This document shows positions 8,649 through 12,518 of a stretch of 37,559 nt of DNA, piece after piece. Position 1 is the stretch's first letter. Each line of letters starts with the position of its first letter. Made by a program: the position numbers and the translations under genes. This stretch comes from Ignavibacteria bacterium (GTDB lineage Bacteria > Bacteroidota > Ignavibacteria > UBA10030 > F1-140-MAGs086): positions 1-37,559 of the forward strand of contig VGWC01000017.1 in assembly GCA_016873775.1 (NCBI GenBank), written 5' to 3'. The notes under the pieces were generated by a model. That model did no database searches and was not told where the DNA came from. It saw nothing but the letters and a program-made list of their open reading frames with translations.

Positions 8649-10160
8649 ATGATTGAGCATTCACACGTTGACGATATAAACGTGTTGATGAAACGCCGCC
8701 GCGAAGAACTCGAAGAACTTAAAAAATTCAATATCAATCCATATCCGTATGAATTTTCTCGTACGGATTTTTCGTCAGATATCCTTGCTTCATTTTCCGA
8801 TGATGCGCCGAAAAGAAATGTTGCAATCGCCGGAAGAATTATGTCGCTTCGCAGAATGGGGAAAGCATCATTCTGCCACATTCAAGATTCGAAGGGAAAA
8901 ATTCAAGTTTATTTGAAGAAGGATGATGTTGGAGAAATTTATGATGCGTTCAAACTTCTCGACATTGGTGATATAATTGGAGTAAATGGATTTATCTTTC
9001 GAACAAAGATGGGAGAAGTTTCTGTTCACGCAGAAAGTTTTTCTGTTCTCTCAAAATCGTTGCGTCCACTTCCGATTGTAAAAGAAAAAGTTGATGAACA
9101 AGGAAACACTGTAACATTCGACGAATTTTCTGACAAAGAACTTCGCTATCGTCAGCGTTATGTTGATTTGATTGTCAATCCTCACGTGCGCGAAGTTTTT
9201 TTCAAGCGTGCGCAAATCGTTAAAACGATTCGCAACTTTCTCGATGCACAAGGATTTCTTGAAGTCGAAACTCCAGTTCTTCAACCCTTGTACGGCGGCG
9301 CATTTGCTCGTCCGTTCATAACGCATCACAACGCACTCGACACACAATTATATTTGCGAATAGCAGACGAACTCTATTTGAAACGCTTACTTGTTGGCGG
9401 AATTGATGGCGTGTACGAAATCTCCAAAGATTTTCGCAACGAAGGAATGGACAGAAACCACAACCCGGAATTTACGATGATGGAAGTGTATGTTCCCTAC
9501 AAAGATTACGTGTGGATGATGAAAATGGTGGAGAAAATGTTTGCAGAAGTTGCACTTGCAATTAATGGTTCATTGAAATGTAATGTTGATGATAAAGAAA
9601 TAAATCTCTCTGCTCCGTTTCAACGTTTGACAATGTTTGATTCGATTGAAAAGTACACGGGAAAAAATCTTCGAGGAAAAAATGAAAATGAACTTCGCGC
9701 TATCGCAAAAGAACTTCAAGTTGAAGTTGATAAAATTGCATCGAGCGGAACAATTATTGATTCAATTTTTTCTGAAAAAGTTCAGCAGCATTTAATTCAA
9801 CCGACGTTCATTACGGATTACCCCGTTGAAATGTCACCGCTTGCAAAACGACATCGCACAGAAGAAGGGCTTGTAGAACGATTTGAATTATTCATCAACG
9901 CACAAGAAGTGTGCAACGCATTTTCTGAACTCAATGACCCGCTCGACCAACGCTCGCGATTTGAAGAACAAATGAAGCAGCGAGAACGAGGAGATGTTGA
10001 AGCGCAAGTTCTCGATGAAGATTTTTTGCGCGCAATGGAATTTGGTATGCCTCCCGCTGCCGGACTCGGAATGGGAATTGACCGATTGACAATGCTTCTT
10101 ACGAATCAACATTCCATTCGCGATGTGGTTTTGTTTCCGCATATGAAACCGGAAAAGTAA
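8649..10160 (+). CDS. lysS: Lysyl-tRNA synthetase, class II
   Basis: LysRS charges tRNA-Lys in the cytoplasm. The 503-residue product has the N-terminal OB-fold anticodon domain ([20 protein letters not shown]) followed by the class II catalytic core. Core motifs seen are RQRYVDLI and [20 protein letters not shown] (motif 1 region), [18 protein letters not shown] (motif 2) and [14 protein letters not shown] (motif 3). The ATG lies about 10 bases after an AAAGG ribosome-site-like sequence. Length is usual for bacterial LysRS. The stop codon is itself inside the left arm of an intergenic inverted repeat. Identity is secure. Confidence 0.97.
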
Positions 10161-10278
10161 ATTCCAAATGACAAAAAACAAATTACAAATAAATTTCAAA
10201 ATTCAATTTTCGAAAATTATCGTACGGATTTGAAATTTGTTCATTGGAATTTATTTGAAATTTGAAATTTGTTTTTTG
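10158..10278. repeat. Heptamer-rich inverted repeat between lysS and the GH57 gene
   Basis: The tract is built of CAAAT-type units about 7 bases long. Two inverted pairs are clear. TAAATTCCAA (10158-10167, including the lysS stop) is exactly complementary to TTGGAATTTA (10244-10253). CAAAAAACAAATTACAAAT (10172-10190) pairs at 18 of 19 positions with 10260-10278. The centre holds the palindromes TTTTCGAAAA (10207-10216) and CGTACG. The two pairings overlap in register and could form alternative folds. No protein frame is supported across it. Confidence 0.75.
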
Positions 10279-10310
10279 GAGTTTTTCTCGAAAACGTTTT
10301 CGCTAAGCAA

Positions 10311-12518
10311 ATGCAATTCATTATCGCTCTTCATAATCATCAACCAGTCGGAAACTTCGGTGAAGTTTTTGAAGAAGCGTATGCAAAATCCTACCACCCA
10401 TTTCTCACAACACTCGAAAAATTTCCCAACGTAAAAGTTTCGCTGCACTATTCCGGAATTCTTCTCGAATGGATTCGGCAATATCGAAAAGAATTTTTTC
10501 CGCTTCTCAAAAAAATGATTGAACGCGAACAGGTCGAAATGCTTGGCGGCGGATTTTACGAACCGATTCTTTGTTCTATTCCTAAACGAGATCAAGTTTC
10601 TCAAATCAAAAAACTTTCCGCATATCTCAATAATCATTTTGGAGTAACAACGAAAGGCATTTGGCTCACAGAACGAGTTTGGGAACAATCGCTCGTTTCT
10701 TCCATCGTGGAAGCGGGAATTGAATTTACAATGCTTGACGACACGCATTTTTTCTACGCAGGATTAGAAGAAAAAAATATGCGAGGATTTTTTCTTACGG
10801 AAGATGAAGGAAATGTTTTGAAAATTTTTCCGATGAGTATGCAAATGCGGTATGCGATTCCGTTTCATACGATTGAAAAATTAGAAAATGAGTTGAGAGA
10901 AATTGAGAATGAAGTAGTTAGTAGCGAGAAGTCAGTAGTCAGTAGTCAGTTGTCAGTAGATAAAACTACAAACCACAAACCACAAACCACAAACCATAAA
11001 CTTTCAAACTCGCAACCAGCAACTCGCAATTCGCAACTTTTACTCTACGGTGATGACGGAGAAAAATTCGGTGTATGGCCAAAAACGTACGAACACGTAT
11101 TTGAGAAAAAGTGGTTAGAACAATTTTTTGAAATGCTCGAAGAAAATTCTTCGTGGTTACAAACGAAAAATTTTTCAGAAACCGTGAATGAAATTACTCC
11201 GCTTGGAACTATTTACTTACCGACTGCATCATATTCAGAAATGCTGCATTGGGCATTACCAACACAAGCGTTTGAAGAGTACGAAGATTTTGAGAAACAA
11301 TTAGAGAAGAAAAAACTATTTGAAAAGAATAAGCGATTTGTGCGCGGTGGATATTGGAAAAATTTTTCGTTCAAATATTCGGAAGTCAATTGGTTGCATA
11401 AAAGGATGTTGAATGTTTCCAAACAAATTTCGTTGCAGACAAATCGAAATGATGCAATCCAAAAAGCGGAAGAGCACTTACATTCAGCGCAATGCAATGA
11501 TGTGTATTGGCACGGAGTTTTTGGCGGATTGTATTTACCATGGCTTCGCCGTCCGATTTTTCAGAATTTGATTGCTGCAGAAAAAATTATTTCCAACAAT
11601 GAAAATAAAATTTCTGAAATTGATTTGGACATAGACGGCGAAAAAGAAATTTGTGTTTCGACTCCATCGCTCAACCTTTTTTTGAAACCATCACTCGGAG
11701 GAGAAATTGCAGAAATAGATTTCAAGCCGATTGCACATAATTTGAGTGATGTGGTTACGAGAAGGAGAGAAGGTTATCATCGAAAAGTTTTTATTGCAAA
11801 GAAGGAAATTGAAAATGAAGTTGCAACGATTCACGATTCGGTAAAAACGAAAGAGGAGGGAATTGAACAGTATTTAGTTGAAGATAAATTTCGACGAATA
11901 TCATTACTCGACCATTTTTTTGACGCGAAGATTTCGTTAGAAAATATTCGACAACAGAATTGGAAAACGATTTCAAACTTTGCGGAAGAACAGTATTCTT
12001 CTTCAATTCAAGAAACGGAAAATCAATTTCAAATTTCTTTACAGCGAAACGGAAATATTGTTCAACGTAAAAAAGAAATTCCAGTTCGGTTGCAAAAAAA
12101 TATTTCAGTCCTCAAATCAAATGCGGAACTTGAAATTGTTTATAGCATAGTAAGTGAAGAAAAATTTTCTAACATTTATTTCGGCAGCGAATGGAATCTT
12201 ACTCTTTCTGCAGGCGATGCCGATGATAGATATTTTCTCATCAATAATTCAAAACCGAAAAATTTTCATTTGCGAAGCGAAGGAATAAGTGAAAATGTTT
12301 CTTCACTGAAAATGATTGATGAATGGCTGAATATCGAAGTTGAATTTGTTTTCGATGAAGCAACAACGCTATGGCGATTCCCTGTTGAAACGGTTTCGCT
12401 TTCGGAAGATGGTTTTGAGCGCGTGTATCAAGGTTCGTGCTTACTACCGTTGTGGAATTTAAAAGGCATGAAGCATTTTGAAACATCGTATAGATTTTCA
12501 ATTAGAAAATTCAAGTGA
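10311..12518 (+). CDS. GH57 4-alpha-glucanotransferase / alpha-amylase-like enzyme
   Basis: The 735-residue product matches the glycoside hydrolase 57 layout of Thermococcus litoralis 4-alpha-glucanotransferase, compared from memory. Motif 1 is LHNHQPVGNF and motif 2 lies around GGGFYEPILCSIPKRD. Glu121 in GIWLTERVWE corresponds to the nucleophile, and the Asp pair 248-249 in YGDDGEKFGVWP contains the acid/base. Motif 5 is RGGYWKNFSFKYSEVNWLHK, followed by QCNDVYWHGVFGGLYLP. The second half (from about residue 420) resembles the beta-rich DUF1926 region. Residues about 202-243 are Ser/Thr/Asn/Gln-rich, encoded by simple 7-base repeats and look inserted. I chose ATG 10311 because MQFIIALHNHQP fits the family start; longer starts lie in the upstream repeat. 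Likely glycogen or maltodextrin remodelling. Its stop overlaps the next gene (GTGA). Confidence 0.88.
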   Translation: MQFIIALHNHQPVGNFGEVFEEAYAKSYHPFLTTLEKFPNVKVSLHYSGILLEWIRQYRKEFFPLLKKMIEREQVEMLGGGFYEPILCSIPKRDQVSQIKKLSAYLNNHFGVTTKGIWLTERVWEQSLVSSIVEAGIEFTMLDDTHFFYAGLEEKNMRGFFLTEDEGNVLKIFPMSMQMRYAIPFHTIEKLENELREIENEVVSSEKSVVSSQLSVDKTTNHKPQTTNHKLSNSQPATRNSQLLLYGDDGEKFGVWPKTYEHVFEKKWLEQFFEMLEENSSWLQTKNFSETVNEITPLGTIYLPTASYSEMLHWALPTQAFEEYEDFEKQLEKKKLFEKNKRFVRGGYWKNFSFKYSEVNWLHKRMLNVSKQISLQTNRNDAIQKAEEHLHSAQCNDVYWHGVFGGLYLPWLRRPIFQNLIAAEKIISNNENKISEIDLDIDGEKEICVSTPSLNLFLKPSLGGEIAEIDFKPIAHNLSDVVTRRREGYHRKVFIAKKEIENEVATIHDSVKTKEEGIEQYLVEDKFRRISLLDHFFDAKISLENIRQQNWKTISNFAEEQYSSSIQETENQFQISLQRNGNIVQRKKEIPVRLQKNISVLKSNAELEIVYSIVSEEKFSNIYFGSEWNLTLSAGDADDRYFLINNSKPKNFHLRSEGISENVSSLKMIDEWLNIEVEFVFDEATTLWRFPVETVSLSEDGFERVYQGSCLLPLWNLKGMKHFETSYRFSIRKFK
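10911..11040 (+). repeat. Tract of three heptamer repeat types inside the GH57 gene
   Basis: Within the coding frame there are CAGTAGT-type units (10933-10960, four copies, one ending in A), then four perfect ACAAACC units (10968-10995), then CAACTCG-type units (11013-11040, four copies with changes). The 130 bases add about 42 residues without a stop. They differ sharply from the surrounding coding sequence, and the homologous enzyme I recall has a much shorter stretch here. Confidence 0.85.

Follow-up and report, generated by a model that had tools for sequence, protein, structure and literature searches.

Tandem arrays of seven-base units have been described in several groups of bacteria. 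TAACTGA arrays are known from Beggiatoaceae, Cyanobacteria and Bacteroidetes (MacGregor 2015, PMC4679880), and GGGAATC and GGGGATT arrays from Xanthomonas and Nostoc (PMC4692102); long simple sequence repeats (Mrazek 2007) and heptanucleotide repeats in Calothrix are cited there as well. A slippage origin has been proposed for bacterial heptamers, seven being, in the argument of Mrazek 2007 as quoted in the same two papers, the length that contacts the polymerase. The known arrays are mostly intergenic; where they do fall within genes, it is chiefly hypothetical proteins or the ends of proteins that are affected. Seven-base tandem repeats are expected to be excluded from genes, because length changes not divisible by three break the frame.

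Repeated DNA of other kinds does enter genes. Rickettsia palindromic elements, and the coding palindromes of Wolbachia and Methanocaldococcus, are cited in PMC2996958 as lying in frame in assorted housekeeping genes, where they form unstructured and apparently tolerated segments. The tandem repeats of Borgs evolve fast and create disordered protein regions, which have been argued to be functional (PMC9879509).

The stretch of DNA analysed here, referred to as the window, is 37,559 nucleotides long and comes from the genome of an Ignavibacteria bacterium. It holds a GH57 gene (features in Table 1) with an open, intact frame, in which all domains of a 4-alpha-glucanotransferase (catalytic, middle and C-terminal) were found, together with the nucleophile Glu and the acid/base Asp of the family. 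Among solved structures the nearest is that of the Thermococcus litoralis 4-alpha-glucanotransferase (PDB 1k1w, E=4.8e-143), with which the protein shares the whole fold and the catalytic residues: an AlphaFold2 model, built from 21 sequences and having a mean pLDDT of 87.8, superposed on 1k1x with a TM-score of 0.93 (by target length). The preliminary description had proposed Glu121 and Asp248/249 as the catalytic pair; Glu121 does align with the T. litoralis nucleophile, whereas the acid/base residue is 249 and not 248. Between the two residues there are 128 positions here, against 91 in T. litoralis (Glu123 to Asp214), whose enzyme is without the loop described below; that description gave a difference of about 35. 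Outside the inserted segment, dN is 0.13 and dS 0.87, a ratio of about 0.15, which shows that the enzyme evolves under purifying selection. Because of this ratio, and as had been supposed from the retention of all GH57 motifs, the protein appears to tolerate the insert.

Table 1. Features of the GH57 locus (positions are those of the window).
Feature	Position	Strand	Basis
Another heptamer locus, in the spacer that directly precedes the GH57 gene: AAATTNC-type hairpin with two arms	10160..10280	.	Tandem Repeats Finder 10165-10192, 10253-10271
GH57 4-alpha-glucanotransferase / alpha-amylase-like gene	10311..12518	+	735 aa; Pfam PF03065, PF09094, PF09095
Catalytic nucleophile Glu121 (T. litoralis Glu123)	10671..10673	+	Alignment; invariant column
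Array 1: CAGTAGT/CAGTTGT/GAGAAGT heptamers, in frame	10913..10957	+	Tandem Repeats Finder 10913-10959, consensus AGTAGTC; period scan
Predicted disordered loop, codons 205-239	10923..11027	+	AlphaFold2, pLDDT <50 throughout 205-239
Array 2: ACAAACC heptamers, four exact	10963..11001	+	Tandem Repeats Finder consensus AAACCAC
Array 3: CAACTCG-type heptamers, degenerate	11007..11038	+	Tandem Repeats Finder consensus AACTCGC
Acid/base Asp249 (T. litoralis Asp214)	11055..11057	+	Alignment; invariant column

The presence of heptamer repeats in frame within the GH57 coding sequence, the central observation of the preliminary description, was borne out by Tandem Repeats Finder, which identified three abutting period-7 arrays at 10913-11038. 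They cover 126 nt, or 42 codons, between residues about 201 and 243, matching the number of residues first attributed to them; the net gain in length over relatives is 35-37 residues according to the alignments. Four units of each type had been counted; this is exact for ACAAACC, but only approximate for the degenerate CAGTAGT and CAACTCG types. Units of array 3, for example, vary among CAACTCG, CAACCAG and CAATTCG, and their type is among the commonest word families of the host genome. The units of arrays 2 and 3 share a core (AAC, then C or T), and the two can be read as a single array whose words drift and whose phase shifts by one base. In a plain period scan, arrays as strong as these, all of period 7 or its multiple 14, were found nowhere else in the window.

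The inserted segment is missing in eight order-level relatives with readable frames, in 16 proteins from Thermotogae, Deltaproteobacteria, Actinomycetes, Gemmatimonadota and Acidobacteria, and in the T. litoralis enzyme. A homologue with a similar segment at this site, which the preliminary description had named as a finding that would speak against it, does exist: the sister, the same-genus genome Ignavibacteriales CROMO_A_84, carries an array at the identical site, similar in kind, 48 nt shorter and made in part of other words. There, the CAGTAGT array is kept, and a degenerate AACTNNN array replaces the ACAAACC and CAACTCG ones; one gap is exactly 21 nt, corresponding to three ACAAACC units, and the frame is kept. 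A shorter and differently worded segment at the same site shows that the insert is older than the split of the two species and still changing.

The same pattern recurs elsewhere, within a comparison that involves a single sister species. At most of the orthologous sites compared, both species carry arrays that differ in words or in unit number, and several intergenic spacers likewise hold heptamers made of other words in the sister. At a first site in the isoleucyl-tRNA synthetase (IleRS) gene, one species has GAGTTAC/CAACTCG arms and the other GGTTGGA/ACAAAYC arms around the same loop, while at a second site the array is present in one species only. Unit number thus varies between close relatives at GH57 (the 21-nt step) and at further sites, in all cases between species; insertion in frame into a conserved gene, missing in relatives, was found for GH57 and for IleRS site 2.

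In the predicted structure, residues 205-239 are the main low-confidence part of an otherwise confident GH57 model. They are flanked by a helix (188-199) and by a strand (243-249) that ends with Asp249, and in the model the insert forms a disordered loop leading from helix to strand. Loops in this position generally lie on the face of an alpha/beta barrel opposite the active site, so the closeness of the insert to the catalytic Asp would be mainly one of sequence. The original statement that the repeats lie near the active site holds in this linear sense; in the model they form a disordered loop before, not after, the strand of Asp249. The Ser/Thr/Asn/Gln loop, disordered in the model, is probably functionless. 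A conserved functional GH57 loop was rejected as an explanation, the loop of the sister differing in both length and sequence.

A census was carried out on 837 kb, a third of the host genome, which is a fragmented draft 97.7% complete and with contamination of 2% or less. At a score of 12 or more, 92 period-7 arrays were found (about 110 per Mb), whereas the other periods between 4 and 12 yielded 0-11 each. Only 0-1 period-7 arrays arose in 438 kb simulated with a first-order Markov model, and loci of other phyla, 352 kb in all, contained none. Arrays of tandem seven-base units, the mark of a satellite, are therefore commoner than chance by about a hundred times, and the whole genome is estimated to carry a few hundred of them. 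What had been described as a striking capture of repeat DNA is indeed heptamer DNA missing in order-level relatives, but it is no isolated event, since similar arrays occur throughout the genome and in many essential genes. They lie inside or adjoining Pfam domains of IleRS (two sites), ValRS (two sites), UvrA, UvrC (where the RNase H domain is split), Ppx/GppA, a MacB/FtsX (LolC/E-type) permease and an AcrB-type pump; NadD and TrpB carry them at the N-terminus, and they also occur downstream of the E1 dehydrogenase domain. Peptides typical of the in-gene arrays are NSQLATRNSQL, SYELRVTS, NHKPQTTNHK and SSQKSVVSSQLSV. According to gene calls that are crude, 21 of the 92 arrays (about 23%) are deep inside genes, where 62% of the DNA lies, 37 (40%) are intergenic, in about 11% of the DNA, and 34 are at gene edges. 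This deficit deep in genes and excess between them indicate that arrays are purged from genes.

The 92 arrays use 46 consensus words. Pairs of arrays sharing an identical word number 105, against 9.5 when the letters are permuted. The motif (AACTCGY)x3 has 61 matches in the host genome and 11 in the sister, and occurs at single sites in 3 of the 96 other genomes of the order that were searched. Exact sharing of at least 27 nt was observed for four pairs of arrays, with 0.9 expected from unit-order shuffles, none of 200 of which reached four; four pairs are a modest signal of copying. Array 1 of GH57 and the array of the LolC/E-type permease (contig C46) have 31 exact nt in common, with variant units in the same order, and the stretch common to the arrays at L088:1366 and L221:19709 includes non-periodic flank; such stretches measure 28-36 nt. 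All six CAGTAGT units placed in the phase that would give TAG are altered, compared with 2 of the 15 in other phases (Fisher p=0.0005), a result suggestive of selection against stop-reading units, drawn from few units in four genes, two of them orthologues, and from an altered unit, CAGAAGT, that is also found in intergenic arrays. The array at L084:12184-12274 drifts from AGTTACG through AATGACC, AATTACA and GATAAC, and then, after a strand flip, to GTTATC and GTTATTG, so that the succession of words can be read along it. In G018, a whole genome of the same order, the control word, the pattern read backwards, was matched eight times, so heptamer vocabularies peculiar to further members of the order may exist.

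The ability to fold was evaluated on the DNA of arrays and array clusters. The insert in GH57 does not fold (z +1.17), whereas the locus just upstream of the gene, which differs in the sister, folds at -23.3 kcal/mol (z -3.07, reached by none of 200 shuffles), and IleRS site 1 forms a strong hairpin with inverted arms (z -6.9). Only 8% of the clusters have a z below -3, and random regions show a distribution no different from theirs (Mann-Whitney p 0.49). A hairpin origin was discarded as a general rule, since the clusters overall fold no better than random regions, even if a minority fold strongly. Candidate enzymes were also sought in the genome. The reverse transcriptase domain RVT_1 was not found in its 97.7% complete sequence, and a reverse-transcriptase or telomerase-like writer was rejected on this basis; two MutS-type genes are present, therefore MutS loss does not explain the expansion; and RAYT-like mobilisation was set aside, since no link to arrays was seen for the four Y1_Tnp transposase-like genes present.

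Dispersed repeats of other types were noted in the same genome. Repeats of ~250-280 nt, with many diverged copies in the sister, are located at L089:8770-9060, L207:1975-2290 and L225:10279-10531; those of L089 and L225 encode SQNYPNPFNP... C-terminal segments, resembling type IX secretion sorting domains, and a heptamer array at L088:15310 sits within a segment of this type. Elements of ~90-110 nt, made of short imperfect words and themselves partly palindromic, are found at L207:14160-14265, L225:18956-19063 and L207:7249-7358; they contain ACACGGATTACACGGAT... and CACTAAGACAC...ACTAAG, and several copies are present in the sister genome. A repeat of ~180-200 nt, without a long frame, lies at L225:12071-12275 and has copies 73-82% identical at several sister sites; a structured RNA or the end of an insertion sequence are possible identities.

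Taken together, we consider it probable that the arrays are a genome-wide heptamer satellite, shaped by slippage, mutation and some copying between loci, of which the in-gene survivors are those that are stop-free, in frame and located in tolerant loops. Replication slippage would add or remove units seven bases at a time, point mutation would make their words drift, and units would sometimes be copied from one locus to another; within genes, selection would keep totals divisible by three, altered forms of stop-prone units, and products that fall in surface loops. At GH57, the outcome would be a disordered Ser/Thr/Asn/Gln loop retained from a time before the two species separated. The comparisons between genomes support both the steps of seven and the filtering in genes, the biochemical step being one that we only infer. 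Slippage with mutation and occasional copying, filtered in genes, is the most economical account; slippage alone leaves unexplained the common vocabulary, and why the period is seven rather than five, six or eight. An artefact of assembly or contamination is extremely improbable: both genomes are many-contig drafts, the sister being a metagenome bin, but the same orthologous sites carry arrays in two separate assemblies, the arrays are shorter than 120 nt with open frames, and the contamination figure is low.

It is rather unlikely that the arrays are a small mobile element, similar to those of Rickettsia or to REP elements served by a transposase, inserting in frame as a unit. Some arrays do share exact stretches inclusive of non-periodic flank, a few fold into hairpins with inverted arms, Y1_Tnp genes are available, and Rickettsia elements do insert in frame in housekeeping genes (cited in PMC2996958); on the other hand, folding is overall that of random regions, no conserved element length, sequence, ends or target duplication was seen, no strong hairpin was found in the GH57 insert, and orthologous sites hold other words instead of showing presence or absence of one element. 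That the encoded loops are adaptive, their disordered segments being kept by selection for binding, regulation or stabilisation, is considerably less probable. The inserts in GH57 and at IleRS site 1 are common to both species, and the Borg precedent (PMC9879509) goes in the same direction, but neither sequence nor length of the GH57 loop is conserved between sisters, functionally unrelated enzymes are involved, arrays are depleted within genes, and the sister is without the insert at IleRS site 2. We give equally little weight to a dedicated enzyme that writes heptamers, such as an error-prone polymerase recopying a short template, which would produce both drift and a common vocabulary. The strict period, the limited set of words changing gradually along arrays, and the isolated occurrence of one word family in three more genomes of the order, at a single site in each, are consistent with it; however, RVT_1 is missing, no candidate enzyme is known, and slippage with mutation can equally yield drift. 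A broader and speculative proposal, to which we assign a low probability comparable to that of the mobile element, is that a DNA-synthesis process of this Ignavibacteriales genus, other than simple slippage of existing repeats, both writes seven-base words and rewrites them at favoured positions, some of them within essential genes, and spreads a common vocabulary between loci.

The satellite proposed here shares with the known bacterial heptanucleotide repeats the exact seven-base unit, the degenerate units, the many sites, and the differing unit number at the same place in close relatives; mixed heptamers have also been reported in Microcystis and Bacteroidetes. It differs from them in having several arrays inside essential enzymes, in the dozens of words within one genome, and in the open frames of its in-gene arrays, whereas the forward TAACTGA array has stops in all frames. 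Rickettsia-type elements, as far as they are described by citation in PMC2996958, are palindromes with a recognisable family sequence, whereas here only the period is constant and most arrays are not palindromic. Borg in-gene repeats have units all divisible by three and nearly unique in sequence (PMC9879509), unlike the seven-base words common to many loci of this genome. Each component is known elsewhere; what is new is the combination, in-frame heptamer arrays within essential enzymes. A search of the open-access literature returned no paper on heptamers in Ignavibacteria.

The arrays now lie in the cores of a glucanotransferase, of repair proteins and of tRNA synthetases, and they are being rewritten between sister species. 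The genus is a natural test bed for two questions: why many bacteria favour seven as the length of a repeat unit, and by what route satellite DNA that codes for nothing turns into disordered loops of essential enzymes.
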